This document shows positions 31,280 to 49,872 of a stretch of 64,000 nucleotides of DNA, in pieces. Within the stretch, counting starts at the first letter, position 1. The number at the start of each line of letters is the position of its first letter. Position numbers and translations under genes: made by a program. This DNA comes from Brytella acorum. GTDB taxonomy: Bacteria; Pseudomonadota; Alphaproteobacteria; Acetobacterales; Acetobacteraceae. The stretch covers positions 124,001 through 188,000 of the forward strand of contig NZ_JARBJP010000004.1 of NCBI RefSeq assembly GCF_029309905.1. Reading direction: 5' to 3'. The notes beneath the pieces are model-generated. The model had not been told where the DNA came from, did not search any database, and saw only the letters and a program-made list of their open reading frames with translations.

Positions 31280-31340
31280 CGTATGCGCGCTTTATGTATA
31301 TAGATTCAATTATAATAGAGTATTTCTATTGGAGCTCGAT

Positions 31341-31745: not shown

Positions 31746-31772
31746 TAATTATGACCGTTTTATACGGAGAAA

Positions 31773-33513: not shown

Positions 33514-33542
33514 GCGCATCTGTTTAAATATGGGAATATCAA

Positions 33543-34976
33543 ATGGACTGGCTGTCGTTGCAGCGTCACTATGTGGCGCCGCCGGGTTTGCCTGCGCGTG
33601 CGGCACGACTTCTGGCGCTTGAACGGGTTCTCTCGGGGACGCAATATGATGTTCTCCCCAATCCGTTTTCGCGGGAACGTTCCGGGGCTGGCGAATATAT
33701 CCCCCTGGCATTGAGGCGTCCGTCTGTTCGCACCAATTTGTGTCGGATCGTCGTGGATGAGGCTGTTTCTCTGCTTTTCGGAGATACGCACTGGCCCTCT
33801 CTGGTCGCTGCGGATTCACGGACCGTCAGAGGGCTTGTCGCTTTTGCGCGTGATGTCGGACTGCCTTCTCTTATGACGGAGGGGGCCATTCGAGGAGCCG
33901 TGGGTTCAGTCGCCATCTTGTTCGAGGTTGCGCATCACGTTCCGCGACTGTCAATTTTGAATACGGCATATCTGACACCGCGTTGGGATACGCAGACGGG
34001 CATACTTCTCGAGGTTGTGGAACGATATCAGGTTATCGGTCACGTTCTCGCCGAGCAGGGGCATGTCATAACTTCTGACATGCTGGAGGCTCATTTCTGG
34101 TGGAAGCGGGTGTGGGATGTTGATTCCTGCACGGTTTTTGTTCCCACGCCGCTCGGGGAAGAGCCTTCCGTTCCGGATACGCTTCGTTCAATCCATCATG
34201 GACTTGGATTTGTTCCGATTGTCTGGACGCGTAACCTGAGTACGACAGGGATGGGGGAGCCTGACGGTGAATGCACTTTTGAGCGTGCCATCGATACGGT
34301 TATCGAAGCCGATTATCTCCTCTCCCAGGCTGGGCGAGGGCTCAAATATGGTTCTGACCCGACGCTGGTTCTCAAAACCAACGGTTTTCCTGAAAATGAC
34401 GTGCGTCAGGGAGGCGCGGCTTCTGCGTTGACCTTGCCGCCAGAAGGGGACGCCAAATTGCTGGAGATCAATGGCAATGCCGCAGGTGCGGTTCTTGCTC
34501 ATTACAGAGAGCTTCGACAGCTTGTTCTTGAGCAGTTGCATGGCAATCGTGCGCATGGTGACCGGCTTTCTGCCGGACAGTCGGGGCGGGCGCTTGAAAT
34601 GATGAGCCAGCCGCTGATCTGGCTTGCGGACAGGTTGAGGCATTCGTATGGGGAAGGGGGATTAATCCCCATTTATCGTATGGCCTGCCGATTTTCTTCT
34701 GTCCTGGAGGACGGATTGTATCTCGGCGGAGAAATGGTGCGGAGTATGGACCCCAATGGTCTGGCTCTGCATTGGCCTCCATGGTTCGCTCCGGGGGAGA
34801 TGGAACTTCTTTCGCTTGCACAGGGGCTCGTTGCGGCATGGCGTGGCGGCATTCTGAGTCGCGAGACTGCAGTACGTCTTTATGCAACGGCGACTGGAAA
34901 TCCAGATCCTTCCGGAGAGTGGGATCGCGTGTGTGCGTTTATGGCGGACGATACCGCTGAAAACGAGGAGTTTTAA
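33543..34976 (+). CDS. Phage portal protein
   Basis: 477 residues. The portal forms the dodecameric DNA gate at one capsid vertex. PRVDEAVSLLFG-like IVVDEAVSLLFGD, AIDTVIEADYLLSQAGRGLKYGSDPTLVLK and SGRALEMMSQPLIWLADRLRHSYG match SPP1/gp6-type portals by eye. It lies between terL and the scaffold, the usual place, and its stop shares an A with the next start (TAATG). Confidence 0.8.
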   Translation: MDWLSLQRHYVAPPGLPARAARLLALERVLSGTQYDVLPNPFSRERSGAGEYIPLALRRPSVRTNLCRIVVDEAVSLLFGDTHWPSLVAADSRTVRGLVAFARDVGLPSLMTEGAIRGAVGSVAILFEVAHHVPRLSILNTAYLTPRWDTQTGILLEVVERYQVIGHVLAEQGHVITSDMLEAHFWWKRVWDVDSCTVFVPTPLGEEPSVPDTLRSIHHGLGFVPIVWTRNLSTTGMGEPDGECTFERAIDTVIEADYLLSQAGRGLKYGSDPTLVLKTNGFPENDVRQGGAASALTLPPEGDAKLLEINGNAAGAVLAHYRELRQLVLEQLHGNRAHGDRLSAGQSGRALEMMSQPLIWLADRLRHSYGEGGLIPIYRMACRFSSVLEDGLYLGGEMVRSMDPNGLALHWPPWFAPGEMELLSLAQGLVAAWRGGILSRETAVRLYATATGNPDPSGEWDRVCAFMADDTAENEEF

Positions 34977-35410
34977 TGAGCGAAGATATTGAGTCGTTGC
35001 AGCGGTCGCTTTCCGAAACTCGGAAAGCGATGGAAGAAATGCGTAAAAGTCATGAGCAGAGACTCAGCGAAGTGCGTCTTGAGGGAGACAGAGCCGTGGT
35101 CCTGGCGACCTTAAAGGCGGAGGCATTGCGCCTTGGGGCTCATAACCCGGAAGACGTCGTACGCTTAATGGACTGGACCGAGATCAAGCGCGACGATGAT
35201 GGCCAGGTTGCGGACGCGTCATCCGCGATTGAAAAAATGCGGCGGGAACGCGCTTATCTTTTTTCAGCGCTGACTGTTTCCGGAAAATCGAGTGGTTCAA
35301 CGGTTGGAGGTCTTGCCCCAAGGCCGGGCGCGCCTCCATCATTCGACGCGCGCAAGGCATCTGATCAGGATTATGCCGCAAGAAAGTGGCAGTTTCTGGC
35401 AGGGAAATAG
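34976..35410 (+). CDS. Phage scaffold-like protein
   Basis: 144 residues. The N-terminal half is a charged coiled coil (ESLQRSLSETRKAMEEMRK, then HEQRLSEVRLEGDRAVVL), the rest is a flexible Gly/Pro-rich tail. This layout and the place between portal and capsid genes match GP20-type minor structural/scaffolding proteins. Confidence 0.65.
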   Translation: MSEDIESLQRSLSETRKAMEEMRKSHEQRLSEVRLEGDRAVVLATLKAEALRLGAHNPEDVVRLMDWTEIKRDDDGQVADASSAIEKMRRERAYLFSALTVSGKSSGSTVGGLAPRPGAPPSFDARKASDQDYAARKWQFLAGK

Positions 35411-35496
35411 CAAGCTTATTGCCTGTGGCTCATAAGCTACGCTGATATTATCTTTATTTCTGACCGTAATTCTATAATAAATTGGAAGAAACCTTC

Positions 35497-36876
35497 ATGG
35501 GTATCGAAAATTTCCCCGTTCAGCTCCAGGCCGCAGTTCAGCAGGGGTTTCTCGCGCGTGAATTTGAGAACGGTCTACGTTCGCGTCTTGGCTTCCGTCA
35601 GATTGCAGATCGTGAGGTATTTCCGAATGCCATCGGCGAAACACTGACAAAGACACGTAAAAGCCTGAAGGCTCCCGTAACAACGCCGATGCTGCCGACG
35701 GGGAATACGAATTTCGATAATGGCCTCTCGCCGAGCGGTTGGTCTATTGAGCAATACACTTTGTCGATCAATCAGTACGGCGACACGATTGACCTGAATA
35801 TGGTCACGTCCGGCGTCGGGATTGCGTCTCAGTTTTTGGCGAATGCCAATACGAACGGTATTCAGGCTATGCAGTCGCTGGACCGTCTGGCCCGTAACAC
35901 CCTTTTCGGTGGCGCGCCGAATGGTGTTGGCGGCTATCTTGGCGGGAATACGCGCGTGACGACAACGCTGGGCTCGGCTGGAGATACGATCGAAGTCGAC
36001 GATATTTCCGGATTCCAGAATGTTATTGTAAACGGCCAAGTGACCTCGATCGGCTCCAGCCATGGGATGACTGTTACCGTCGGATCCGGTGTGTATACTT
36101 TGATTGCTGCGCAGGCGGATGCGACCAATGTGTCGACAGCTCCTAATGGTATTTCCGGAACGTTGACGTTTTCGGCTGCCGTCTCTGTATCGGACGGCAC
36201 AAATGGGAACGCTGTGGTAGCGGCTACGGCGCCTCTTGTGATCCGGCCGAATGGTCGTCTTACAACCGCAGCCCTTCAGACGGCCAGCGTCAATGGTCCG
36301 GCGGACACGCTGAGCATTCAGAATGTTCTGGCGGGTGTTGCCGCATTGCGTCGGAACAATGTTCCCGTGATCGACGGAGCTTACCACTGCTATCTGGACG
36401 ACCTGCAGTTGCTGTCTATGTTCCGTGATGCGGACTTCAAATATCTGTATCGTGGTGCTTATGGTTCGGAAGAATATCGTTCTGGGCAGGTTGTCGAACT
36501 GCTGGGGGTGCGCTTCATTCCGACCACAGAGGCACCTCAGCAGGCGTCGCTTGGTGCCGGTTCGATTCATCGGGCACTTCTCGTGGGACAAGGTGCGATT
36601 GTTGAGGGTGATTGCGCATCTGTCGGTCATAGCGACATTCCGGATATGGAGCGGTCTCTGATTGAAATTGTTGATGGTGTCGCGATGGTGACGCGCGAGC
36701 CTCTTGATCGCCTACGTCAGATTATTGCGCAGTCCTGGTATTGGATTGGCGGTTTTGCACTGCCGACAGATGTGACGGCGAATACGTCTATTATTCCGAC
36801 GGCGACCAATGCGTATCTCAAGCGTGGTGTGATTATTGAGAGCCTTGGAACGGATGCTCTCGGGTTGGTGAGCTGA
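35497..36876 (+). CDS. Phage major capsid protein
   Basis: 459 residues from the ATG at 35497 (GGAAGA 7 nt upstream). The product contains AQFLANANTNGIQAMQSLDRLARNTLFGG-type helix (spine-helix-like), a beta-rich insert of about 95 residues near positions 150-250 (Gly/Val/Thr-rich) and NVLAGVAALRRNNVPVIDG, YHCYLDDLQLLSMFRD and the C-terminal WYWIGGFALPTDV, as in HK97-fold capsid proteins with an insertion domain. Follows an 86-bp gap holding the inverted repeat AGCTTAT/ATAAGCT (35413-35438), which may separate expression of the abundant capsid. Confidence 0.75.
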   Translation: MGIENFPVQLQAAVQQGFLAREFENGLRSRLGFRQIADREVFPNAIGETLTKTRKSLKAPVTTPMLPTGNTNFDNGLSPSGWSIEQYTLSINQYGDTIDLNMVTSGVGIASQFLANANTNGIQAMQSLDRLARNTLFGGAPNGVGGYLGGNTRVTTTLGSAGDTIEVDDISGFQNVIVNGQVTSIGSSHGMTVTVGSGVYTLIAAQADATNVSTAPNGISGTLTFSAAVSVSDGTNGNAVVAATAPLVIRPNGRLTTAALQTASVNGPADTLSIQNVLAGVAALRRNNVPVIDGAYHCYLDDLQLLSMFRDADFKYLYRGAYGSEEYRSGQVVELLGVRFIPTTEAPQQASLGAGSIHRALLVGQGAIVEGDCASVGHSDIPDMERSLIEIVDGVAMVTREPLDRLRQIIAQSWYWIGGFALPTDVTANTSIIPTATNAYLKRGVIIESLGTDALGLVS

Positions 36877-36889
36877 TTGGAGGAAGGGC

Positions 36890-37291
36890 ATGTCTGAGTC
36901 CACGGGTTTTTCGGACATGCCGCTCAGTGACGCCGAAAAAACGGATGTGCGTCGATTCTGCGGTTATCCGGCAATTGGTGCAACGGCGAGCGGTGAAAAT
37001 TCCTGGCGTTTTTTTCAAACCTATGGGGCGCTTGAGTGGCGGATGAACAATCTTTCCTCAAGCGAACTGATCCAGGCGCGGACTTACGTGGCGCAAATCC
37101 TACCGCTTGAAGTCGCGATTCTGGGCGTGTCTGCCAATTTGGATACCGATCAGGCGGCTGTCTGGAAGCATAATGCCAACGAGACAAGGGACCGAATGTC
37201 TCTTTTCTGTCTCTGGCGCAAACGATTTTGCGGCTTCCTGGGAGTGCCGCCTGGGCCTGACCTGCAGAGTATGGCCGACATCATAATCTGA
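36890..37291 (+). CDS. Phage head-tail connector-like protein
   Basis: 133 residues, mostly helical: PLSDAEKTDVRRFCGYPAIG, then QTYGALEWRMNNLSSSELI and LPLEVAILGVSANLDTDQAA. Helical connector proteins of about this size normally follow the capsid gene and seat on the portal. Family not firmly recognised. Confidence 0.6.
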   Translation: MSESTGFSDMPLSDAEKTDVRRFCGYPAIGATASGENSWRFFQTYGALEWRMNNLSSSELIQARTYVAQILPLEVAILGVSANLDTDQAAVWKHNANETRDRMSLFCLWRKRFCGFLGVPPGPDLQSMADIII

Positions 37292-37335
37292 AATAAGAGA
37301 TTTTGACGCCGTTCAAGGAGGATAGGGAGAATATT

Positions 37336-37932
37336 TTGGAGCGCGATGCACTCGATAGACTTGTGGCTGTCGGCTTCGGACATGCGGCGCTGCATCTTGG
37401 CATGAAGGGTGTACAGTATCGCCCAACGGATGCGCTGGCCCCGATGGCGTCCGTATATGCGGCGCCAGTCATGGCGTTCGATCGTCAGCCAGGCTTCAGG
37501 TTTCTGGCGCCGGGCGGGTGGGGAGCCATAAGTCGTTTTGTTCTGATGGATGTTTCCGACGTTCTGACGGGTGATATTCTGGTCAGCGGCCAGGATACAT
37601 ATTTCGTGGCGCGAACGGATGATTTCCGGCCGCCGCTCTGTATCCAGTGCAACCGTGTCGTGACCATTAGCAATGTAACGGGAACAAGCGGGAACGTCGT
37701 TGCGTCCTGCCCGGCTGCGATCGAAATGAAGGGCAGGGGAGAGGGGGAAAAGAGCGGAATGCCGGGGTCACTGCGACCGGGGCAATTTGTCCTGCTGCTT
37801 CCGTCTTTGCCGGGCGTTTTGCTGCAGCCGTATATGACGGTTACGAGTGATCTCGGGACATCCTACACGTTGAATGCGGTCGAAACGTCATCTTACGGCT
37901 TTCGCTGCATTATTTCGATGCAGCAGGTATGA
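37336..37932 (+). CDS. Phage structural protein, head completion or adaptor
   Basis: 198 residues from a TTG at 37336 (GGGAG 6 nt upstream); an upstream TTG at 37303 is also possible. A helical start (ERDALDRLVAVGFGHAALH) is followed by beta-rich sequence (YAAPVMAFDRQPGFRFLAP, VSDVLTGDILVSGQDTYF). Position suggests a head-completion or tail-terminator role. No family recognised. Confidence 0.55.
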   Translation: MERDALDRLVAVGFGHAALHLGMKGVQYRPTDALAPMASVYAAPVMAFDRQPGFRFLAPGGWGAISRFVLMDVSDVLTGDILVSGQDTYFVARTDDFRPPLCIQCNRVVTISNVTGTSGNVVASCPAAIEMKGRGEGEKSGMPGSLRPGQFVLLLPSLPGVLLQPYMTVTSDLGTSYTLNAVETSSYGFRCIISMQQV

Positions 37933-37933
37933 T

Positions 37934-38911
37934 ATGGCGGATGTGTCTCAGGTCTCGTTAGCTCTTGCGTTTGAATGTGCGACGCTTGTCTACCCGCTCG
38001 GGCTGGACAAGGCGTCCGTGACGGGACGACAGACTTTTGTGCGCCGAGGATGGTTGTTGCCCAGCGACGTCTTTTCGGCCGAATCTGTCAGGAGCAATGT
38101 TGATTATATCACCGTAACGGCGGCACTTGAGGATTACAAGGGTCTGGCGGAACCGCTGGGGCGACCATGGACCCAGGATCTTAAAATTGATCCCACGATC
38201 AGCGTTTCTTGTGACGATAATGTCGCGACGGTTGCTTTTGCCAGTGGAGGCGCTCCTTGTGGTATCGTGGGGTTGCGTTGGGATGGCGGTCCTATCCGCT
38301 CGGCGACGAGTGCCTATGCGGTTTCAGCGAATGATACGCCACAAAGCGTCGCGGCGGGATTGGCCGCGGGGTTCAGCGGTGCGATCGCTGTGGGCGCGCA
38401 AGTCAAAGTTTTAGAGGGCTCGTTGACGGCCCGCGTGGCGGGTTATGGCCGTTCACGTCGCGTGACGCGACGACAAACCCAGAAATTGCGACTTTCGATA
38501 TGGACGAGCAGCGCAGACGCTCGCGAGCAACTGGGACAGCTCCTGGACACCTCGCTCAGTGAGATCAACTGGTTGCCGACTGCGGATTGTGGTCAGGCGC
38601 AACTTTCGTTCGAGGGATCTGGAGATATCGATACTTTGCAGACGCAGACCCTGTATCGCCGAGACCTTATTTTTCGAACGGTTTTTGACACCTTTCAGAG
38701 TGAATGGTCGGCATACATGATGTTCGGCGTGGGACAGCTATCAGGACCAGAATGGGAGGCTGGCTTCGGAGATGCGCTGCCCAGTCTGGACGGGCAGAGC
38801 GATCTGGCGGTGCTGGCCGCAGAGGCTGCCGCGACCCAAGGTATTGTGGCTGATTGCTCCTATCCAGGTCTTACGACTGACGCATTTGGAACGGTCCGAT
38901 CGGCATCGTGA
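37934..38911 (+). CDS. Phage structural protein upstream of the tail sheath
   Basis: 325 residues from the ATG at 37934. The middle holds Thr/Val-rich segments (ALEDYKGLAEPLGRPWTQ, RLSIWTSSADAREQLGQLL), and LLDTSLSEINWLP resembles tail-terminator or tail-completion proteins. It starts 1 nt after the previous stop. Function is assigned by place only. Confidence 0.55.
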   Translation: MADVSQVSLALAFECATLVYPLGLDKASVTGRQTFVRRGWLLPSDVFSAESVRSNVDYITVTAALEDYKGLAEPLGRPWTQDLKIDPTISVSCDDNVATVAFASGGAPCGIVGLRWDGGPIRSATSAYAVSANDTPQSVAAGLAAGFSGAIAVGAQVKVLEGSLTARVAGYGRSRRVTRRQTQKLRLSIWTSSADAREQLGQLLDTSLSEINWLPTADCGQAQLSFEGSGDIDTLQTQTLYRRDLIFRTVFDTFQSEWSAYMMFGVGQLSGPEWEAGFGDALPSLDGQSDLAVLAAEAAATQGIVADCSYPGLTTDAFGTVRSAS

Positions 38912-38915
38912 GACA

Positions 38916-38999
38916 ATGATTTTGGCTGAAATTTTACAGGCCGACTCTCACTGCAACCGTCCTGCTTATGAGTGTGCCGCAGTTCGAAGGGAAATTTAA
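38916..38999 (+). CDS. Possible 27-residue phage peptide
   Basis: ATG at 38916, TAA at 38997-38999, and the stop shares its last A with the sheath start (TAATG). The peptide is MILAEILQADSHCNRPAYEC and seven further residues. It may couple translation of the sheath. Short length makes it uncertain. Confidence 0.35.
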   Translation: MILAEILQADSHCNRPAYECAAVRREI

Positions 39000-40483
39000 T
39001 GTCGCGTATTTATCAGGCTGGAACGTTGAACACGTCTGCGCTGACGGTTCCAGACCTTTATGTGCAGATTGCTCAGCCGCAATCTTTAACGCTGTCTGGC
39101 GCATCGACGGGTATTCTTGGAGTTGTTGGAACCGCGTCATGGGGGCCGACAAATGTACCCACGCCTGTCGGCGGCATGGGCGACTATATGTCGAGTTTTG
39201 GTGCGAAACGGGGCAACACGACGGATGCCGGGCTTGCCGTTAATATCGCTCAGCTTCAGGGGGCGAATCTATTTCGGGTCGTGCGCGTCACCGATGGAAC
39301 GGATAAGGCGGCCGCAGGGGCGCTCAGTGGCGTAACGCTTACGGCGGCTTGTACGGGATCGGCTGGTAACGACATTGTGGCAACATTGGCTGTTGCGAGC
39401 CGGGGATACTCTCTGGTCGTGTCTCATCCGGTACTCGGCGTCTCGAATTACATGGGTGCAGACTGGCCCGCGCTTGCACAGGCGGTCGCGGCCGATTCCG
39501 CAGCTCTGGTCGTGTTGGAGATTCCTTCGGAGGCGCCGACGTTCAGCGCGGGTGGAGTTACCCTCTCTGGGGGCAGCGATGGTGGGATTCCTCCGACCTC
39601 CGCATTTATTGGTGTGGATGGTGTGAGCCGGACCGGCATGTATGCTCTGCGTGGGCAGGGATGCTCACTCGTTATACTGCATGGTATTACTGACTCGAGT
39701 TGTTTCACCATTCAGGCTGCGTTTGGCCTTGGTGAAGGGGCTTATATGGTTGTGAGTGGACCGCAGGGAGATACGCTGGCCAATGCCGTGGCGAACAAGG
39801 CATCAGCGGGGCTGGATTCCTATGCTGTCAAACTCATGTTTGGTGACTGGATATGGTGGAATGACGATACGAATGGGCTGATGCTTGTCAGTCCTCAGGC
39901 ATTTTCTGCGGGAATCCTGGCGGCTCTATCACCGCAGAGATCGAGTTTGAACAAGGCGCTCTCTGGCGTGGTCGGTAGCCAGAAAGCGGGCATGTCCGGA
40001 GTGGGAACAACTTATTCTGTCGCTGAACTGGCGATGTTGTTCGAGGCGGGGATCGATGTGATCTGTAACCCCGCGCCGGGTGGTTCATATTGGGCTGTTC
40101 GCTGTGGGCATAATAGCTCCAGTAATGCCGCAATTTGTGGCGATAATTATACACGGATGACGAACTACCTGGCCTCGTCTCTGGCGGGAGGCATGGGCGC
40201 TTATGTGGGGAGCGTTATCAACGACACGTTGTTCGGGGATATTCGTGCCACGCTTCTTGGATTTTTGTCTTCACTTGTTTCGCAGGGAATTCTTGGAATC
40301 ACCAATAATACGCTGCCTTATGCGGTTGTTTGTGACGCGAGCAATAACAGCGCGGCCCGGATTGCGTTGGGTTATGTCCAGGCTGATGTTCAGGTCCAAT
40401 ATCAGGGCATTAATGAGAAGTTTATCGTCAATCTACAGGGCGGAACGTCTGTAACTGTCTCCAACTCTGGGGGGAATGTTTAA
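38999..40483 (+). CDS. Phage contractile tail sheath protein
   Basis: 494 residues from the ATG at 38999. Sheath features are the N-terminal TVPDLYVQIAQPQSL and TGILGVVGTASWGPTNVP, a long variable middle, and the C-terminal QGILGITNNTLPYAVVCDASNNS with IALGYVQADVQVQYQGINEKFIVNL, the conserved core strand arm exchange region of Mu/P2-type sheaths. It shows that this is a contractile (myovirus-like) tail. Confidence 0.88.
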   Translation: MSRIYQAGTLNTSALTVPDLYVQIAQPQSLTLSGASTGILGVVGTASWGPTNVPTPVGGMGDYMSSFGAKRGNTTDAGLAVNIAQLQGANLFRVVRVTDGTDKAAAGALSGVTLTAACTGSAGNDIVATLAVASRGYSLVVSHPVLGVSNYMGADWPALAQAVAADSAALVVLEIPSEAPTFSAGGVTLSGGSDGGIPPTSAFIGVDGVSRTGMYALRGQGCSLVILHGITDSSCFTIQAAFGLGEGAYMVVSGPQGDTLANAVANKASAGLDSYAVKLMFGDWIWWNDDTNGLMLVSPQAFSAGILAALSPQRSSLNKALSGVVGSQKAGMSGVGTTYSVAELAMLFEAGIDVICNPAPGGSYWAVRCGHNSSSNAAICGDNYTRMTNYLASSLAGGMGAYVGSVINDTLFGDIRATLLGFLSSLVSQGILGITNNTLPYAVVCDASNNSAARIALGYVQADVQVQYQGINEKFIVNLQGGTSVTVSNSGGNV

Positions 40484-40485
40484 GC

Positions 40486-40911
40486 ATGACCAAACCATAT
40501 AGTATCGGTCGTGACTGCCGCGTGACGTTTTTGTGGAATGGCTCTCGGATTGACCTGAGAGATGTTACCGGGTTTCAGGCAATCCAGCAGACGCGCACGC
40601 AGAGGGCCGATCCTCTTAACGGAATGCCCGTCGTCTTTAATACGCCGAATGGGTGGAGCGGAACATTTACGATTGCGCGCGCCAATGCCAATCTCGACGA
40701 GCTGGTGGCGGCGATTGAATCATCTTTCTGGAATGCAGGCGTCATCGGGAGTGGTACGATTTATCAGTATATCACCGAGCCGGACGGAAGCATGACAACC
40801 TGGGAATATCTGAATGTTTCCATGACGTTGGAAACGGATCGTTGGCAAGCTGAGGGCATGATCCATCAATCCGTTCACTTTTTTGCATCTACGCGAGTGA
40901 AAATTTCATGA
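40486..40911 (+). CDS. Phage tail tube protein
   Basis: 141 residues directly after the sheath. Beta-rich with DVTGFQAIQQTRTQRADPLN, GWSGTFTIARANANLDELVA and NVSMTLETDRWQAEGMIHQSVHFFAS, matching tube proteins of contractile tails, which stack as hexamers inside the sheath. Its stop overlaps the next ATG (ATGA). Confidence 0.82.
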   Translation: MTKPYSIGRDCRVTFLWNGSRIDLRDVTGFQAIQQTRTQRADPLNGMPVVFNTPNGWSGTFTIARANANLDELVAAIESSFWNAGVIGSGTIYQYITEPDGSMTTWEYLNVSMTLETDRWQAEGMIHQSVHFFASTRVKIS

Positions 40912-41228
40912 CCATGCTTCCTCATGAGATAAAGACCTCTGGGGGGCGGAAGTTAACGCTTCGTGAGGTCGATCCCGCCGACATGTTGGATTTAATCGAA
41001 GCTGCTGGCTCGGCCATGAACGGGGCTTCGGCCGCTACATGGCTGGGTTATGCGCAGATGGTTTGCTCGGTCACAGCGATAGACGGCGTTCCAGTACAGA
41101 TGCCTGCCACGAAGTTGGAGGTCAAGGATCTTGCCCGCCGTATTGGTAATGACGGGGTGTCAGTATTGTGTCCTTTGTTCGAAGGGGAGATCGCTCAGTC
41201 GGAGATCGAAGCTTCAGCAAAAAACTGA
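40908..41228 (+). CDS. Tail assembly chaperone, short form (gpG-like)
   Basis: 106 residues; begins HEIKTSGGRKLTLREVDP and ends just after the slippery sequence at AKN. The position (between the tube and the tape-measure slot), a helical core (MLDLIEAAGSAM, then WLGYAQMVCSVTAIDGVP) and the frameshift site at its 3' end fit lambda gpG-type chaperones, which bind the tape-measure protein during tail assembly. Confidence 0.75.
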   Translation: MTMLPHEIKTSGGRKLTLREVDPADMLDLIEAAGSAMNGASAATWLGYAQMVCSVTAIDGVPVQMPATKLEVKDLARRIGNDGVSVLCPLFEGEIAQSEIEASAKN

Positions 41229-41395
41229 GTCGGCACCCCGTTTTTGGAGAAATGCTCTATCTTCTTCGAAATGGGGTGCCGTGGGATGTAATGAAGCAAT
41301 GGTCGCGAGCGCGCCGAATGGCTGCATGTGTGGCAATTGCCGAACAGGATGGGGCCATTTTTGACTGGGATTTCATGCGATATCGTTCCGAATAG
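40908..41395 (+). CDS. Tail assembly chaperone, frameshifted long form (gpGT-like)
   Basis: A -1 shift at A AAA AAC (41219-41225) joins the 106 residues of the short form to a second frame, giving LSRHPVFGEMLYLLRNGVPW and then DVMKQWSRARRMAACVA up to the TAG at 41393-41395, 162 residues in all. The second frame has no good start of its own. A small T-domain following gpG is the normal lambda-type arrangement. Confidence 0.75.
41219..41281 (+). other. Programmed -1 frameshift signal
   Basis: The slippery heptamer A AAA AAC (41219-41225) is in the canonical register, directly before the TGA stop (41226-41228). After a 5-nt spacer the perfect 9-bp GC-rich stem CGGCACCCC (41231-41239) / GGGGTGCCG (41273-41281) closes a 33-nt loop, in the right place to pause ribosomes. 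Confidence 0.85.
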
Positions 41396-41396
41396 G

Positions 41397-42191
41397 TTGA
41401 TTCCTGTTCGCGTCCCACGAGCAGCTAAAGTTGCCGTGGGACGGATTCTGAGTGTATCGCGCCTTATGAATGTGGTGCCGCGTCGGAAGGCTATGGATAT
41501 TCCGCAGAAATCTGCTGAATCCGAGTCTGCGAATGCCGTACATTTGGTGTCCTTATTGCGCGGTATTCGTGATAAATTTGTTTTGCGACATGTGAATTTT
41601 GAACGAAAACAATTATTGTCTGGCACGAAATCAAAACATTTTTCGTTCAAGTCCCTGGGAGCTAAGAAGTTTGGCCTGGGTGCTGGCTCGAATGCGAAAA
41701 TGTCGAGAGTAATGTATTTCTTGGATCGATCTCGAAGTAATAATATTCGTCCTTATTCCGGCCAGTTTATGTCGCCGACTGTCAGGGCAATATTGCATCG
41801 CTCCAAGGTGATGGTCGGTCAGACTCTTTATCCGATGGAAAGCGGTGCCAAAAAAGCGCCATTTACGAATAATCGATCATCACTGGGACTTGTTTCTGTG
41901 CCTAAAACCAGTTTTGGTCGGCAGACCGACGGTATCCGGTGGGTGCCTCCATATCGTGCGCCGATGTCAGAGGTTAACAAACGAAGGGGTGGCGGAGTTG
42001 GGCGATCGGTCGATGATGCGGGCGTCCATATCGACGGTTCGTTTTCAAATCATCTTTCTATGTCTGCGACAATCAACAGAGGCGTCGTGGATATTGTGCC
42101 CGGTAGCGGATATCTTGCAGCGAGGAGTCGCTCCGCGATGTTCGATGAGCTGGCACACCCACAATATGCCGGAACGAGTGTTGGATTTTAA
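41397..42191 (+). CDS. Protein in the tape-measure position, 264 residues
   Basis: From a TTG at 41397 the product has 264 residues; in-frame starts further up (GTG at 41328, ATG at 41349) would overlap the chaperone gene. It is basic (many Lys/Arg), not strongly helical, with KSLGAKKFGLGAGSNAKM in the middle and VDDAGVHIDGSFSNHLS and GSGYLAARSRSAMFDELAH at the end. In contractile phages this slot holds a tape-measure protein, often over 500 residues and coiled coil. It is either a much reduced tape measure or a different protein. Confidence 0.55.
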   Translation: MIPVRVPRAAKVAVGRILSVSRLMNVVPRRKAMDIPQKSAESESANAVHLVSLLRGIRDKFVLRHVNFERKQLLSGTKSKHFSFKSLGAKKFGLGAGSNAKMSRVMYFLDRSRSNNIRPYSGQFMSPTVRAILHRSKVMVGQTLYPMESGAKKAPFTNNRSSLGLVSVPKTSFGRQTDGIRWVPPYRAPMSEVNKRRGGGVGRSVDDAGVHIDGSFSNHLSMSATINRGVVDIVPGSGYLAARSRSAMFDELAHPQYAGTSVGF

Positions 42192-42228
42192 TAACGCATT
42201 TTATGCTTGAGATACGAGACTTTGTCGC

Positions 42229-43137
42229 ATGGGCGTTGGAATAACAGAAATTGAGTCTGTAGTCGGTGCGATAGGACGGGCATCTGCTGCGGCACCTGTC
42301 TTGATTGGCAACATGGTTCTGACCGGGCTGGAAGTTCCCGATGAACTTATCGTGGGAGGGCGACAGGAGCTGGTTGTGCATCGCCTCCTTGGTGGTGGTC
42401 GGGTTATCGACACGCTTGGTAATGATCCGTCGAGACTGATGCTGCGGGGGAGGTTTGTCGGGCCAGAAGCGCAGATGCGCGCCAGGATACTTGAGCGCAT
42501 GCGCATGGCAGGCGCAGCTGTCGCCTTTTCGGCCGCGGGGTTATCGTGCCAAGTATGGATCGTGCAATTCCAATACGCGTACGAAGCGAAGGGCGCTTTG
42601 TGCCGTTATTGGCTCGAACTTGAGCGTGCCGCGGAACAGGTATCGAATACCGCGTCTCAGGAGAACGGCTGGTCAAATGATGTGGGAAATGCGCTTTCAA
42701 CGTTAACGTCCTTTGTCGGAGGCGTATCCAGTGCGACGTATGTTCTGGCGGGGCAGATCGGGACGGTGGGTGGTCAAGTTACGCCGCTGGCTACAATGGT
42801 CGGCGCAGGTGGGGCCGTTGCCAAGGTTTCCGATGCTTTGGGAGTCGTGAATGGTATCTCCCAGACAGGAGTGGACTTGGCGACTTCTCCAGAATCCGTT
42901 GCCTCAATGCTCTCCGGATTTCGACAGGCTGGTGCGGGTCTTACTTCTGTTTTGAGCGAAAGTGGCGCCAATCTGGAGGGAATTGCTCTCATGAATAGCA
43001 ATTCCCTCTCGGCTCTCACAGTCAATGCCGGACTAGCCAGTACGGCGGCTGACACGGGGGGGCTGCTCAATCGTGCATCTGCGAATGTGTCGATTGCGGG
43101 GGGCATAGTTCCTACCGCTGCGAATGCTACCGTCTAA
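42229..43137 (+). CDS. Phage tail/DNA-circulation protein (Mu gpN-like N-terminus)
   Basis: 302 residues. MVLTGLEVPDELIVGGRQE, LVVHRLLGGGRVIDTLGND, RGRFVGPEAQMRARILERMRMAG form the conserved N-terminal domain of 'DNA circulation'/baseplate hub-proximal proteins of Mu-like phages. The C-terminal about 130 residues are Gly/Ala/Val-rich and non-conserved. It probably joins the tail tube to the baseplate. Confidence 0.72.
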   Translation: MGVGITEIESVVGAIGRASAAAPVLIGNMVLTGLEVPDELIVGGRQELVVHRLLGGGRVIDTLGNDPSRLMLRGRFVGPEAQMRARILERMRMAGAAVAFSAAGLSCQVWIVQFQYAYEAKGALCRYWLELERAAEQVSNTASQENGWSNDVGNALSTLTSFVGGVSSATYVLAGQIGTVGGQVTPLATMVGAGGAVAKVSDALGVVNGISQTGVDLATSPESVASMLSGFRQAGAGLTSVLSESGANLEGIALMNSNSLSALTVNAGLASTAADTGGLLNRASANVSIAGGIVPTAANATV

Positions 43138-43190
43138 AGTAAAACTAACTTCATATATGGTAAAAGTGGTGAAATGCGAGGGTCGTGACA

Positions 43191-43394
43191 ATGATAATCC
43201 AGGTCACAGCGGCGGATATTTCTCTTTTTCACGTAGCCGCGCGGTACTTGGGTGATGCAACTCAATGGTGGCGGATCTCCCAGTTAAACGGTATCTCCGA
43301 TCCTGATCTGAGTCGTCTGACGTCCCCAATTTCGGTTGCATTGCCGTCACAGAGTGCGACTTTAACGGCAGGTCTGCCGGAGTTGGTCGCATGA
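43191..43394 (+). CDS. Phage tail protein X (LysM-like)
   Basis: 67 residues from the ATG at 43191 with GAGGG 9 nt upstream. FHVAARYLGDATQWWRISQLNGISDP is a LysM-type motif as in P2 gpX, which sits in the tail and helps hub assembly. It overlaps the hub gene start by 4 nt. Confidence 0.75.
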   Translation: MIIQVTAADISLFHVAARYLGDATQWWRISQLNGISDPDLSRLTSPISVALPSQSATLTAGLPELVA

Positions 43395-44467
43395 GCAACG
43401 CGCGAGCGTGGGACATAAGGCTGCTGGTCGACGGGGAGGTTCCACTTGGGACGCCGGTTATGGCCTTCAAGGTGTCAACAAGCCGTTATGCGGAGTGTGA
43501 TACGGCCGAAATGCATCTCGCGGTAGATCGGCTGGCTCTTCAGGGTGTTCGCCCCTGGTTTGATTCTATGGTTTCGACGCGCCCGGACGTCCAGTTACAG
43601 CTTTTGAGGCGGAATACAAAAGGGGCATCATGGCAAACTATTTTCCATGGCATTGCAGACTATGTTATCTGGTCTCGTGATAACTATCGTGTAACGATAG
43701 AGTGTCGCGATTATTTATCATTGCTATTGGACGCACGTGTACAGGATGCATGGCTTAATTGCCGCGCTTCGGAGTTGATCGAACGTGTTGTAGCGACGTC
43801 AGGTCTGTCTTCCGATATTGACCTTGGGAGCACTGATAGTCCTGCGACAGGAATGACAGGGCAATTCTGGCAGGTTGAACACAAACGTGGGAGCGCTCTG
43901 GCACAGCATCGCTTTCAGACGGCGTTTGATATCGCTTTTTTTCTGGCGCGTGAGGCTAATTGTGACCTTTTCGCGTCCGGAAAGACGATTGTCGCCCGGC
44001 CCATTCTTTCTTCAGATGACCAGAATGCGATCATACATGAAAACAGCACGGGAGCATTGACGACCTTGTTGTATCGGGATCTTGCAGCTCCGGACGGTGT
44101 CGTTGTGCATTTTGCGTCCTGGGATAGTCGCCAGAGAAGCCGTACCGAGACGTTTTTTGATGGACACACATTCTCTTCAGAGCGTCCTGCAAAAGGGTTG
44201 ATTCATAGTTTTCGTGTGCCTGGCCGAAGACTGGATGATCTGCAGGTTATGGCGCGTGGAAAATATATGAGGATCGTGGCGCAGCAGAGGCACGTACATT
44301 TGCGTCTTCCCGGGTGTCCGGATATTCGACCTCGGAGTTTCATGAAGCTACCGGAGAACGCCGTTACGGCTTGGCCAGACATTATGGGCATCGATCGTGT
44401 GGTTTCCCAAGTCTCACCGACAGAAGGATTTATTCAGGATATTGTTTTTTCTGAGAGGTTGGCTTGA
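43391..44467 (+). CDS. Phage baseplate hub protein (gpD/late control D-like)
   Basis: 358 residues. It has FHGIADYVIWSRDNYRVTIE, LLDARVQDAWLNCRASELIE and KGLIHSFRVPGRRLDDLQVM, typical of gp27/gpD-type hubs with four barrel-like domains. It pairs with the spike gene that follows through a TGATG junction. The hub carries the spike at the tail tip. Confidence 0.75.
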   Translation: MSNARAWDIRLLVDGEVPLGTPVMAFKVSTSRYAECDTAEMHLAVDRLALQGVRPWFDSMVSTRPDVQLQLLRRNTKGASWQTIFHGIADYVIWSRDNYRVTIECRDYLSLLLDARVQDAWLNCRASELIERVVATSGLSSDIDLGSTDSPATGMTGQFWQVEHKRGSALAQHRFQTAFDIAFFLAREANCDLFASGKTIVARPILSSDDQNAIIHENSTGALTTLLYRDLAAPDGVVVHFASWDSRQRSRTETFFDGHTFSSERPAKGLIHSFRVPGRRLDDLQVMARGKYMRIVAQQRHVHLRLPGCPDIRPRSFMKLPENAVTAWPDIMGIDRVVSQVSPTEGFIQDIVFSERLA

Positions 44468-45087
44468 TGGATAACCATTTCGCTGCGGTCACCACAACCA
44501 ATAGAATCGCTCACACAGTTCATGGTATTGTTTCGGCTGTTGATCCGGCGAATCATGCCGTCAAGGTCTTATTGCAGCCGGAGAATATCGAGACTGGCTG
44601 GATTCCGGATGCTGTCTTGACACAAGTTGGAGATCTTCGAATTTCCTGCCCGACTGTTCCTGGAACACATGTCGTTCTTCAACCGATTGAAGGGGACGGG
44701 GAGCATCTGGTTGTTACAAGTGTCGTTTACGATGCCGTTGTCATGCCTGTCGTGTCGCCGGCGACAGGTCTGGTGGCCCAGCCCGGAGAGTTGTTGATCG
44801 TGACAGGGTGTGGAGCGCCCCCTCAGGGCAACGATGATCCTGTCGGAGCTTCCAATGGCGTTGCCGGGTGGTGCCATGTGACACCTACCGGAGTTTTTCT
44901 CGGGGCTGGAGATGCGAGGCTGAGCATAAATGACGGGGAGGTGGTCATTTCTGTTGACGGCACGACGGCAAGTTTATCTTCCGCCGGTCTCAAGTTGGAG
45001 GGGGGAGATATCATGACCGATCTCCATTCGCTGAATTCGCATCGACATCCCCTGGGCAACCAAGTGACGGGAGGACCGCTGGGATGA
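44467..45087 (+). CDS. Phage baseplate assembly/spike protein (gpV-like)
   Basis: 206 residues from the ATG at 44467. The N-terminal OB-like part (AHTVHGIVSAVDPANHAVKVLL, WIPDAVLTQVGDLRISCPTVPGTHVVL) and a C-terminal beta-helix-like region (ARLSINDGEVVISVDGTTASL) ending LNSHRHPLGNQVTGGPLG match spike proteins, where His residues hold a metal ion at the tip. Confidence 0.75.
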   Translation: MDNHFAAVTTTNRIAHTVHGIVSAVDPANHAVKVLLQPENIETGWIPDAVLTQVGDLRISCPTVPGTHVVLQPIEGDGEHLVVTSVVYDAVVMPVVSPATGLVAQPGELLIVTGCGAPPQGNDDPVGASNGVAGWCHVTPTGVFLGAGDARLSINDGEVVISVDGTTASLSSAGLKLEGGDIMTDLHSLNSHRHPLGNQVTGGPLG

Positions 45088-45446
45088 ATGCGATCGCGCA
45101 TGTCATGGGGGCGGACCTTACACTGGCGGCGGGCACGGGTCTTTCTGTAATTTCGGGCGCAGACTGTGTTCGTCAAAAAATATTGCGACGTCTTTGTACC
45201 AATCCTGGCGCTTATATCTGGCAACTTGATTATGGTGCGGGGCTTCCCGCGATGATCGGAGATCCGACTTCGACGTCCCTTATCGAGAGCATTGTGAGGG
45301 CTCAAATGGCACTGGAGGCGGGTGTCGATCAGACTCAACCGGTGTCGGTCAGTGTCGAGCAATTCTCTGATGGGGGCGTGCGCTGCGTTATAACGTATGT
45401 CGATGCTCAGACTCAACAGACGCAATTGCTCAGCGTCCTCAACTAA
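45084..45446 (+). CDS. Phage baseplate protein (gp25/gpW-like)
   Basis: 120 residues: CVRQKILRRLCTNPGAYIWQLDYGAGLP, then IVRAQMALEAGVDQTQPVSVSVEQF. The 'RR L.T..G...WL..YG.GL' pattern is that of gp25-like wedge proteins, which here has a Gln in place of the usual acidic/aromatic residue. An intrinsic terminator follows 67 nt later. Confidence 0.75.
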   Translation: MNAIAHVMGADLTLAAGTGLSVISGADCVRQKILRRLCTNPGAYIWQLDYGAGLPAMIGDPTSTSLIESIVRAQMALEAGVDQTQPVSVSVEQFSDGGVRCVITYVDAQTQQTQLLSVLN

Positions 45447-45512
45447 GGGGAAGCGGCCTGGGTGCGCAAGACGCAATTCTCAGGGCTGACAGCGGGAATA
45501 TTGGAGAACGGC

Positions 45513-45536
45513 AGGGCGCTTTTCGGCGCCCTTTTT
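45513..45536 (+). terminator. Intrinsic terminator between gp25-like and baseplate J genes
   Basis: AGGGCGC (45513-45519) and GCGCCCT (45526-45532) form a perfect 7-bp stem with loop TTTTCG, and TTTTT (45532-45536) follows. It lies inside the late operon, 14 nt before the start of J (45550), so it may act as an attenuator. Confidence 0.6.
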
Positions 45537-45549
45537 GTTGGGTGCGGAT

Positions 45550-46692
45550 ATGTCTCTTACTTTTCGATCTTTCGCGACGACCGTTGCGACAGCGGTCGCA
45601 ACGGCGCAGGCATCCTGTGCTCAATTATTAAATATGGATGTGGGGACGCCCGGGCGGGCGTTGATGGAAAGCGTCAGCGGTGTAGGGCTCTGGTTTCAGT
45701 ATCTGGCCCTGCAAGTTTTATCGCGTACGCGCCTTGCGACATCTCAGGGAACAGATTGCGATAGCTTCGTAAACGATTTCGGAATGATGAGACTATCCGG
45801 AACGCCTGCGACCGGCATGGTGACAATGACCTGTTTTTCGTCTCAGGGACAGTCGGCCGTTATCCCTGCCGGTGTCACCGTCCGCACAGTTTCTGGCATA
45901 ACATTTACTGTCATCGAGGATAGTGCGCTTCCGTACTGGTCTACGACATTGGGGGGATATGTTCGGACTGCCGGGGTGGCGTCAATCTCTGTTCCTGTTC
46001 AAGCCGTTATCGCCGGTGGATCGGGGAATGTAGCGATCGGGGCCATCTGCCTGATGGGAACGGCTGTCGCCGGTATCGATACCGTCACGAATTCCGCCCC
46101 CCTGTTGAACGGCTCGGATATGGAAACCGATGAGGCGCTTCGTGATCGATTTCCGTTATGGTTGGCGGCGAAAGCGACGGGGTGTCCTGCTGCGGTGGAA
46201 AATGCAGTGGCCGGTGTGCAGAGCAACCTGAGTTGCGCGCTGATGGATGGACAATCCCCGGACGGCAGTTCGCGAGCCGGATACTTTACTGTCGTGGTGG
46301 ATGATGGAACCGGAGCGGCCTCGGATGCCGTTGTGAGTGCCGTTTATGACGCCGTAGATGCGGTGAGAGCCTGCGGGGTCGCCTTTGCTGTCCAGAGACC
46401 GAGCGTCATGACGCTCAATGTCTCCATGACCATTACGGTGCCGGTAAATTCGGATACCCAGCTCGTGCAAACGGCTTTGTCGGCAGCCGTTATGGCTGAC
46501 ATTGAAGCTGTGGGCGTCGGCGGTGGCTACGCCTATAGCCGCCTTGCCTATCTTGCATATGTCAACGCCGGTGTCACGGTTCTCGCCGTGACGAATGTGC
46601 TTTTGAACGGAAGTCAGGCAGACATTACTTCGCAAAAAAATCGCATTCTTTTGCCGGGATCCGTGTCAATTCAAGTTATCGGAGGATCATGA
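45550..46692 (+). CDS. Phage baseplate assembly protein J
   Basis: 380 residues from the ATG at 45550. MDVGTPGRALMESVSG, LSRTRLATSQGTDCDSFVND and ETDEALRDRFPLWLAAKATGCP (the 'TDEALR.R' signature) are standard for gpJ/baseplate J, a wedge protein. The in-frame TTG at 45535 overlaps the terminator, so ATG is preferred. Confidence 0.85.
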   Translation: MSLTFRSFATTVATAVATAQASCAQLLNMDVGTPGRALMESVSGVGLWFQYLALQVLSRTRLATSQGTDCDSFVNDFGMMRLSGTPATGMVTMTCFSSQGQSAVIPAGVTVRTVSGITFTVIEDSALPYWSTTLGGYVRTAGVASISVPVQAVIAGGSGNVAIGAICLMGTAVAGIDTVTNSAPLLNGSDMETDEALRDRFPLWLAAKATGCPAAVENAVAGVQSNLSCALMDGQSPDGSSRAGYFTVVVDDGTGAASDAVVSAVYDAVDAVRACGVAFAVQRPSVMTLNVSMTITVPVNSDTQLVQTALSAAVMADIEAVGVGGGYAYSRLAYLAYVNAGVTVLAVTNVLLNGSQADITSQKNRILLPGSVSIQVIGGS

Positions 46693-47927
46693 TGCCTGCG
46701 TTTAATAATTATCCGAAGCGCGGTACGGTTCGGGGCGATGAAGTTCTTGTTGTTGCTGATAGCAGTGGTATTCAGACCCTGAATGTCACGGCCTCTCAAC
46801 TTGCCGGCGCTCCGGCTGTTTCACCAGCCACGGGCGAATTCTATGTTGACGATGGCGCGAAAGTCAGTCGTTTTGGTGACCGACTTTTTGTGGGTGCCGC
46901 AGTGGATTATCCGGCACAGTCGTCTCGGGATGTGACGCCGCAGGACTGGCTGTCTGGACTGATGGCCGAGACCTCTATCGGACCCTGGGCCATGCAGACC
47001 GCGCAGAGTGCCTCTCTCGCAAGATTTGGAACCACGGCATTTGTGGGTGCTTCGCGCACTTCTGACTCACAGTCTGCGGGTTCCATGATGGGCTTCGTGC
47101 CGAGTTCAATTGGCATTGGTGCCTGGGGTGTTGCGGATGCGACAGAAAATCCGACGTCGACGACGGCCTATGCTTATTACGGTGAAGGGTGGCGTCTGGC
47201 GGGTGTAAATTATCAACCGACGTTCTGTATGGAATTAGAGGCCGTCAATCTCGGCGGACCGGCTTCAGGTATGTCGACCCCGTATCATCCGAATTGCGGC
47301 GGAGGGACGTACGCTATTCAGCTTGGAGCGGGTGGAGGGCAGACGTCGGGAACCTCGGACGCCGAAGCTGGAATCGTTTTTGTCAGCAATCCCAATGCGT
47401 TTAAGACTGGTATCATATTTGGTGCCTCGTCGCTGACCGGGACAGAGGGATCGGATAGCGGTTACGGAACCGCGATTTCAATGAGCAAGGGACATGGCAT
47501 CCAATGGCAGACGCCGGAAACAGTCCAGAATGTTCAAGGCGCGTCTACGGGTGCGATGATTTATTCCACAGTAGAGACATCTACCAAGGGCTCTCGGATA
47601 CAGTTTCTGGATGATGTTCTTGCCATTGAGGACGCGGCAGGAAATGCGGTTTTTTCCGTCGGTATTAATGAAAATCCGACAAATGTTCTGCAGGTGCAAG
47701 CCGGTAGCGGTCAGCAGGCGGCGGGAATTTACGTGCAAGGTGGTTTGGGAGGATCTCAGAACCTGGGTCTTTATCCAGGTTTGGGAGGAGAAATTCAGAT
47801 GACTTCTCCTGTTTCGGGTCTTGCCGGGGCGGTGCCAACGACGGCGTCTGGAGGATTTTTACACATTAATATCAATGGCCAAGACTATCGGATTCCGCTT
47901 TTTGAAGCAACGCAGGTGGGAGGCTGA
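46689..47927 (+). CDS. Phage tail fibre or receptor-binding protein, candidate
   Basis: 412 residues, no signal, almost all beta-type, Gly/Ser/Thr-rich: PKRGTVRGDEVLVVADSSG at the start (a common tail-fibre opening), then YHPNCGGGTYAIQLGAGGGQ and PNAFKTGIIFGASSL. It lies between J and I, where a fibre-like protein is unusual in P2/Mu order. Overlaps both neighbours by 1-4 nt. Confidence 0.65.
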   Translation: MMPAFNNYPKRGTVRGDEVLVVADSSGIQTLNVTASQLAGAPAVSPATGEFYVDDGAKVSRFGDRLFVGAAVDYPAQSSRDVTPQDWLSGLMAETSIGPWAMQTAQSASLARFGTTAFVGASRTSDSQSAGSMMGFVPSSIGIGAWGVADATENPTSTTAYAYYGEGWRLAGVNYQPTFCMELEAVNLGGPASGMSTPYHPNCGGGTYAIQLGAGGGQTSGTSDAEAGIVFVSNPNAFKTGIIFGASSLTGTEGSDSGYGTAISMSKGHGIQWQTPETVQNVQGASTGAMIYSTVETSTKGSRIQFLDDVLAIEDAAGNAVFSVGINENPTNVLQVQAGSGQQAAGIYVQGGLGGSQNLGLYPGLGGEIQMTSPVSGLAGAVPTTASGGFLHININGQDYRIPLFEATQVGG

Positions 47928-48613
47928 TGAGTGAACTGAAAGATGTAGCCTCGGTTACGTTATTGGCAACGGATGGAAAGCCGTTGCTCGATCTCTCTCC
48001 TGTACTGGGTTCGAAAGAAGATTTTGCGGGACGTCTGAGATCGTTGCTGCCCACAGGATGGTTTCCAAGTCCTCCTCAGGACGAGGAAATCGAAGAGGCC
48101 CCTGCCCTTGCGGCAGTCTTACTTGGTTTTGGTTCTGTTTTTTCCTGGGCATGGGCATTGCTGGGAGGCGTGGCGAAACAAAGCCGCATCGGCAGCATGG
48201 ACGGGGCCTTTCTGGATATCGCCGCAGCAGATTATTTTGGGAATGCCGGTTTGCTGCGACGTCAGAATGAAACAGATTCCCGTTATCGGGCGAGAATTGC
48301 GAGCAGTCTGGTCGATGTCCGTAACACGCGGACGGCCGTCGAAAGGGTTCTGACGAGTATTACGGGTGCCGCGCCGCGTATCGTCGAGCCGATGAATGCC
48401 GGAGACTGCCGGGCGCTTGGAGGTCTTGATATTCCGATCGCCGGAGGCGGATACGGTTGGGGATCATCGTCGCTTCGATATGGTCATCCTGCCGGGGGAC
48501 AGTTTTTTGTGGAGACGGTCCCGGGGAACGCCTCTGGAGCCGTTGAAATTGCAGCAGCGGTCGAGCGGACCAAAGCGCTTGGTGTCATGGCATGGATAAG
48601 GGTTGAAAGCTGA
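47927..48613 (+). CDS. Phage tail protein I (DUF2313-like)
   Basis: 228 residues. LRSLLPTGWFPSPP near the N-terminus is the gpI/DUF2313 opening (LLPxGW), and SRYRARIASSLVDVRNTRTAVERVLTSITG is the central helix region. The C-terminal about 90 residues are Gly-rich (GGGYGWGSSSLRYGHPAGGQFF), as in tail-fibre attachment domains. It links baseplate and fibre. Confidence 0.75.
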   Translation: MSELKDVASVTLLATDGKPLLDLSPVLGSKEDFAGRLRSLLPTGWFPSPPQDEEIEEAPALAAVLLGFGSVFSWAWALLGGVAKQSRIGSMDGAFLDIAAADYFGNAGLLRRQNETDSRYRARIASSLVDVRNTRTAVERVLTSITGAAPRIVEPMNAGDCRALGGLDIPIAGGGYGWGSSSLRYGHPAGGQFFVETVPGNASGAVEIAAAVERTKALGVMAWIRVES

Positions 48614-49872
48614 TGGATCGTGCGATCGTTTATGCGGGCTCCATTCCGATGGATACTGATTTTCTGAAAGCAGGACGCTACGCGAAAGAGGGATTGGGGC
48701 GTTTCGCCGAGATGGTGTTCGGTGTGAATGCTACCGCCGCGTGTGGTCTTTCCTGCAGTGTGTCGACGACAGCTTTAGAGATTTCTATCGGGGTTGGTTC
48801 GATTGTGGCGCCAGGTGTTCTGGATGCCAATCCTATCGGAGGGGCCGGTGCGGGTCTTGCCGCTGATGAAACGGTGCTTTCCGTTCAGTATTTAAACAGC
48901 AATGTACAGACGGTCACTATTCCGACCAGCGGTATCGTTTGCACGATTTATGCTGTGTGTCAGGAATCGGATATCGATTTTGATGTTCTGCCATTTTACA
49001 ATTCCGCGCAGCCGAGCCAGACATTGGCGGGAGTGTCGAACGATGGGCAGGCTCTTCCGACGCGCCGAACGGGCACGATGAATTTCATCGCGGCAACGAC
49101 ACCGCCGTCAGGTCCCGCAGGTGGTATCGTGGTGCCGCTTTATACGCTTGTCGTCCCCTCGAATGTGACCAGTCTCGCGGGTGTGACGGCAGAGGCGGGG
49201 CAGGTCTTCTGGCCGACCATACCGGAACTCGCGACGATGACACTGTTGAAGGCCGTCGCTGCGCCGCCTTCCATCATGTTGAATGGCGGCACACTCGTTA
49301 TTCCGGCCTGGGCCTCACGGATCGAGTTGCGTGCTGTCGGTGGTGGCGGTGGTGGCTCGACTTCCAGCGCGTCCTCGGCGGATACAGGTTCGTTTTCCGG
49401 TTCCGGTGGTGGCGCCGGAGGCGATGCGTGGGGTGTGTATAGTGTGGATCCGGCATCTTCCAATGCCCTGGAGGTGACGATCGGCAGCGCCGGAGGACAA
49501 CAGGAAACGGGTGGAACGACCCTGGTCAGCTACGGAGGAGTTACTCTCCTGCAGGCTGCAGGCGGGGCGCCAGGAAGTTTTTATTCAAGTCGCGGGTCTT
49601 CCGGTGGCGGCGGCGGCGCAGCCTCTGGAGGAACGATCTGGAACCTGACCGGCGGCTGGGGGGGGGACGGCCAAAACAACGCGTATTCTCTGTCCGGCTA
49701 TGGAGCCGACGGCCCCTGGGGCGGTGGCGGTCGTGCCGGAGCGGATGGTGGTATGGGGGCGACCAAATTCGGCGCGGGCGGCGGCGGCGCTTATACGGTG
49801 GCGTCCGAAAACACGGTCTCTTCGGGAGGCTCCGGCTATCAGGGATGCGTTATGTATCGTTTTCTTCCCTGA
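48613..49872 (+). CDS. Phage tail fibre with poly-Gly receptor tip
   Basis: 419 residues. The N-terminal half is fibre-like and binds the baseplate region; from about residue 230 it becomes extremely Gly/Ser-rich with GGGGGGSTSS, GSGGGAGGDAWG, SSGGGGGAASGG, PWGGGGRAG and GAGGGGAYTV runs. This composition resembles the poly-glycine sandwich tips of T-even-type adhesins (S16 gp38). The last residues VMYRFLP are aromatic, as in such tips. Last gene of the cluster. Confidence 0.75.
   Translation: MDRAIVYAGSIPMDTDFLKAGRYAKEGLGRFAEMVFGVNATAACGLSCSVSTTALEISIGVGSIVAPGVLDANPIGGAGAGLAADETVLSVQYLNSNVQTVTIPTSGIVCTIYAVCQESDIDFDVLPFYNSAQPSQTLAGVSNDGQALPTRRTGTMNFIAATTPPSGPAGGIVVPLYTLVVPSNVTSLAGVTAEAGQVFWPTIPELATMTLLKAVAAPPSIMLNGGTLVIPAWASRIELRAVGGGGGGSTSSASSADTGSFSGSGGGAGGDAWGVYSVDPASSNALEVTIGSAGGQQETGGTTLVSYGGVTLLQAAGGAPGSFYSSRGSSGGGGGAASGGTIWNLTGGWGGDGQNNAYSLSGYGADGPWGGGGRAGADGGMGATKFGAGGGGAYTVASENTVSSGGSGYQGCVMYRFLP

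Follow-up and report, generated by a model that had tools for sequence, protein, structure and literature searches.

A conserved slip site and 3' hairpin point to programmed -1 frameshifting in a putative tail-chaperone gene of Acetobacteraceae phage-like clusters

A phage-like cluster and its two-frame gene

The window analysed here is a 64,000-nt stretch of the Brytella acorum contig NZ_JARBJP010000004.1 (GCF_029309905.1), and all coordinates given below are relative to it. It carries a head-and-contractile-tail cluster of ~19 kb (30740-49872, + strand). The head and packaging block (30740-38911) was assigned by Pfam and PHROG matches and comprises TerS, TerL, portal, scaffold, major capsid protein and head-tail genes. 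It is followed by the tail sheath gene (38972-40483; phrog_23, E 3e-48), a probable tail tube gene placed between sheath and chaperone (40486-40911; phrog_12993, of unknown function), the chaperone pair and a tape-measure slot (41388-42191). Profile matches in the baseplate and fibre block (42229-49872) identified a phrog_36820 protein, gpV-, gp25- and gpJ-like proteins and a fibre. Integrase, replication and lysis genes were not recognised within the cluster. An XRE-type regulator gene adjoins it on the - strand (29946-30338). Each of the 10 acetous genomes tested has this regulator in the same position, at 78-87% identity; it is a candidate controller of the cluster.

The 0-frame product of the chaperone gene (40908-41228, +) is a 106-aa 'G-like' protein. 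The reading frame ends in TCA GCA AAA AAC TGA, so that the slippery heptamer A_AAA_AAC (41219-41225) stands in the canonical X_XXY_YYZ register and abuts the TGA stop (41226-41228). The -1 frame (41225-41395, +) is open up to its own stop at 41393-41395 and encodes a 56-aa 'T-like' extension, which would be read only after a shift and would bring the product to 162 aa (106 + 56). A 5-nt spacer (41226-41230) separates the heptamer from a predicted hairpin at 41231-41281, which is built of at least 13 nt per arm (41231-41243 and 41269-41281, with one G.U pair) and an inner helix. The predicted minimum free energy is -29.7 kcal/mol, with a z score of -3.8 against dinucleotide shuffles.

The sequence-only reading of this DNA had listed the in-register heptamer directly before TGA, the 5-nt spacer, the 162-residue -1 product and a perfect 9-bp stem (41231-41239 with 41273-41281), and each of these is present in the sequence. 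The stem proved to be the base of the longer, nearly fully paired hairpin. A further suggestion, that a 33-nt loop might form a pseudoknot, found no support and is not needed: the remainder of the supposed loop folds, in the prediction, as an inner helix stacked on the stem, and the long hairpin covaries. AAAAAAC occurs 10 times in the window against 5.7 expected, and the heptamer by itself is therefore unremarkable; what exceeds chance is its combination with the hairpin and the conservation of that combination.

Several lines of evidence bear on the identity of the protein. The 0-frame product matches phrog_20383, a family of unknown function (E 2e-17 in the window; matched by 32/32 relatives), and one of the 32 members has a weak match to the tail assembly chaperone family phrog_508 (6e-4). 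A Pfam search returned no match for the chaperone, and nothing credible came from a PDB sequence search with it or from a PHROGs search with the extension. The fold model of the 0-frame product (pLDDT 88) has the HK97 tail chaperone 2ob9 as its top PDB match, a weak one (E 0.4, TM 0.41), and several annotated tail chaperones are among its weak viral fold matches. The extension is modelled as three helices (pLDDT 92); one row from a phage database record was left out in making both structure models. The window and its relatives share one order of genes, running from the sheath through the probable tube to the chaperone pair and the tape-measure slot, which places the chaperone between tail tube and tape measure. 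Gene order together with the weak fold and profile matches supports assignment as a G/GT-type tail assembly chaperone.

The extension itself carries a conserved motif (LSRHPxxxExLYLVxxGVPW...FDW). Its dN/dS between Gluconobacter species, the only genus compared by the simple pairwise Nei-Gojobori method used throughout, is 0.00-0.23, indicating purifying selection on the -1 frame.

Conservation of the slip site and the hairpin

A protein search of viral contigs yielded 26 relatives, which together with the window made up the first 27 loci. AAAAAAC followed by TGA or TAA was found in 27/27. The -1 extension is 55-62 aa long in all of them except L012, where 24 residues are visible before the contig end cuts the frame. 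The 0-frame sequence immediately 5' of the slip site diverges among these viral-contig relatives. Another 33 loci came from a scan of genome contigs; most belong to Gluconobacter, and the others to Asaia, Neokomagataea, Tanticharoenia, Acidomonas, one Acetobacter and further Acetobacteraceae. When 300 Acetobacteraceae genomes were searched by profile, 124 of them proved to carry the chaperone pair, mostly at a single locus; they represent 49 of the 102 genera sampled.

Both halves of the pair could be read in 100 loci (80 distinct sequences; the viral-contig and genome collections overlap). All 100 contain an X_XXY_YYZ heptamer at the frame junction in the correct register, as expected for a programmed -1 frameshift, and the shift to the -1 frame falls at the same position in every one. 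The heptamer is AAAAAAC in 88, GGGAAAC in 11 and AAAAAAT in one. Most relatives have their 0-frame stop, TGA or TAA, at the position seen in the window. In five distant loci (L117 and L123-L126) it lies 18 nt further downstream, with the heptamer, the stem and the spacing between them kept. In the Asaia astilbis locus (L055), the extension is broken by a 1-nt deletion affecting the hairpin region, perhaps a sequencing error.

The exchange of one canonical heptamer for another at a fixed site is strong evidence for ribosomal slippage over either reinitiation or polymerase slippage. Reinitiation would make the pair two genes, with the downstream frame translated from an internal start of its own after termination, as the annotation of Komagataeibacter phage phiKX1 implies: two coding sequences are recorded there (12001-12348 and 12363-12542), each as a 'hypothetical protein', and internal GTG, TTG and ATG codons do occur near the junction. 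Such a mechanism would need no heptamer, yet a canonical one is kept or replaced by another in all 100 loci; the extension is conserved precisely from the slip site onward (AKN-LSRHP), and the hairpin sits where it would stimulate a shift. We regard separate initiation as very improbable, albeit the strongest of the competitors.

The hairpin was examined in an alignment of 45 distinct rows. Across its 24 pairs, 83.8% of cells are paired compared with 41-58% in slid registers, and 12 pairs show double-sided changes. The covariation score of 0.243 (0.154 in shuffled alignments) was reached in 0/500 shuffles. The clearest compensatory changes are the series C-G to U-G to U-A at columns 19/57 and a G-C to U-A exchange at columns 24/52. 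The sequence-only reading had staked its claim on the heptamer and stem being kept in related clusters, and both are indeed retained, with compensatory changes.

Because the stem lies within the -1 coding frame, synonymous codons were randomised as a control. The hairpin was lost in these codon-preserving shuffles, the native folds being more stable with a mean z of -3.4 over 31 representatives and -3.1 for the window; the weakest individual hairpin gave -0.7 (L094), and that of L008 was also weak (-1.1). Codon choice inside the stem is correspondingly skewed: Val is encoded by GTG in 78/78 cases (background 0.43), Gly by GGG in 69/80 (0.25) and His by CAC in 74/78 (0.23), whereas the third position of the Pro codon, at the edge of the helix, shows no bias (0.60 against a background of 0.55). 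These values bear directly on the proposal that coding constraint, rather than an RNA signal, accounts for the inverted repeat. The R-H and G-V-P residues encoded there do rank among the most conserved of the extension, but amino acid constraint would not fix synonymous third positions within the helix while sparing the one at its edge, nor produce compensatory changes, and we consider this origin of the repeat very unlikely. The hairpin thus starts 5 nt 3' of the heptamer, within the 5-9 nt range for a 3' stimulatory structure, and passes both the covariation and the codon-shuffle tests.

Least probable of all is transcriptional slippage, in which mRNAs gaining or losing an A on the six-A run at the slip site would fuse the two frames, for the run shrinks to just three A in the 11 GGGAAAC loci with the frame relation unchanged, and the conserved hairpin at 5-nt spacing would be left unexplained.

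Taken together, the position of the gene, its weakly chaperone-like fold, the universal slip site, frame and hairpin, the compensatory changes and the constraint on synonymous sites support the proposal that a contractile-tail chaperone is subject to a programmed -1 frameshift, which on this comparative sequence evidence we hold to be very probably real. In the mechanism we propose, ribosomes translating 40908-41228 would pause at the hairpin 5 nt 3' of A_AAA_AAC, and in a minority of them the paired P- and A-site tRNAs would slip back by one base, so that AAA AAC re-pairs as AAA AAA. The slipped ribosomes would bypass the TGA and add 56 residues, yielding the 162-aa G-T protein beside the 106-aa G. 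By analogy with lambda gpG/gpGT, G would bind the tape measure and the T part would recruit tail-tube subunits, with the efficiency of the shift setting the ratio of the two proteins.

One point counts against the proposed slippage: in E. coli, ribosomes slip less readily on A_AAA_AAC than on A_AAA_AAG (PMC5009743). The tRNA complement of the host partially supports a preference for AAC over AAG. It includes a gene for tRNA-Lys(CUU), a tRNA that would reduce slippage on A_AAG; no gene for tRNA-Lys(UUU) turned up in the set of tRNAs examined, and it presumably sits in an assembly gap.

Inheritance of the cluster and its tape-measure slot

The chromosomal surroundings of the cluster are shared among relatives. 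Of 10 acetous genomes tested, 8 have the same RND efflux-pump gene on the upstream flank; downstream, Hsp33 and then argF follow in 11 loci from several genera, with argD as well where the stretch reaches that far. In one of the loci (L094), only metabolic genes lie between the fibre and the Hsp33-argF flank. Other genera have flanks that differ from those of the window yet are shared at least partly among their own species. Judged by this synteny, the cluster appears in several genera to be passed on vertically at a constant place in the chromosome, as gene transfer agents (GTAs) are.

Selection on its genes points the same way. In the Gluconobacter comparison, dN/dS is 0.00-0.17 for the head and packaging block and 0.00-0.23 across the full set of tested genes, with terminase and capsid among them. 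Purifying selection on structural and packaging genes, combined with a cluster in which no integrase or lysis genes were recognised, is the pattern expected of a GTA. A decaying prophage is ruled out by the dN/dS values of all tested genes, and a tailocin is disfavoured because the head and packaging genes are kept.

The slot downstream of the chaperone pair, assigned to the tape measure by its position, encodes a short basic protein of at most 267 aa in the window. In short-form relatives the slot protein is also basic and measures 254-486 aa; in related phage-like loci it reaches 743-807 aa. In one other genus, the C-terminal end of the slot protein is similar to that of the phiKX1 tape measure, which is 743 aa long (E 2.7e-8). 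The slot protein is fast-evolving, and relatives keep only a C-terminal motif (DELAxPQYPGxSxGF-like). Two phage-like loci (L095 and L111) have 11-12 kb from the chaperone to the next conserved tail gene, including a tape measure of ~770 aa; the genome that carries L111 (G048) also has a second copy, of the short form (L093). The tail of phiKX1 is 98.9 nm long (PMC8566455). If length scales as in phiKX1, with 98.9 nm for 743 aa, the tail specified by the window would be about 35-40 nm long.

The cluster looks like a domesticated phage-like particle, possibly one with a GTA-like function, a likeness that the sequence-only reading had missed. At least part of the industrially important Acetobacteraceae seems to have kept this phage-derived particle cluster as its own. 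A tentative reading, to which we give somewhat less than even weight, is that the cluster is a viriform: a gene transfer agent with a contractile tail, inherited in Acetobacteraceae. This reading draws on the head, terminase, portal, sheath and chaperone genes kept under selection, the fixed site, the failure to recognise integration or lysis genes in the cluster and a tape measure cut from ~740-810 to ~250-490 aa. Were it correct, very short tails would be predicted.

Comparison with known systems

RcGTA and BaGTA resemble the window cluster in being vertically inherited head-and-tail clusters under purifying selection. A text search of the GTA classification paper (PMC9662315) found no contractile-tailed member.

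Frameshifting at -1 in tail chaperones is well known from lambda, P2 and other phages (PMC5009743, PMC3091744), and a report of this particular pair was not found in the limited set of literature searched. The sequence-only reading had described the signal as lambda-like in its anatomy, which does not hold: the window has a strong, conserved 3' hairpin, whereas downstream structures are described as uncommon among the tail frameshift sites of phages and as lacking in P2 E/E' (PMC3091744). The pair further differs from lambda gpG/gpGT in its contractile tail, in its A_AAA_AAC or G_GGA_AAC slip site and in having no detectable sequence relation to Pfam chaperone families. P2 gpE/gpE+E' is closer in being a contractile-tail chaperone with a -1 shift and products of 91 and 142 aa (106 and 162 aa here), but it uses T_TTT_TTG without a predicted 3' structure (PMC3091744). 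The two main slip-site forms found in this study are exactly those of the g-t sites of HCTV-1 and HCTV-2, G_GGA_AAC and A_AAA_AAC (PMC5009743); these are archaeal (haloarchaeal) viruses, and the likeness lies in the slip-site sequences.

The Komagataeibacter phages phiKX1 and phiKX2 have a homologous chaperone pair, which in phiKX1 has the same heptamer and hairpin. Unlike the window cluster, both are 53-kb temperate phages (PMC8566455), and phiKX1 has a 743-aa tape measure and a pair annotated as two hypothetical proteins; a joined coding sequence at 12001-12542 (L028) is likely the correct annotation. The analysis assigns a testable function to a widespread, unannotated gene pair and provides a well documented case of structure-stimulated frameshifting in a tail chaperone. 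Among the known systems, the unusual feature here is not the shift but its strong, conserved hairpin.
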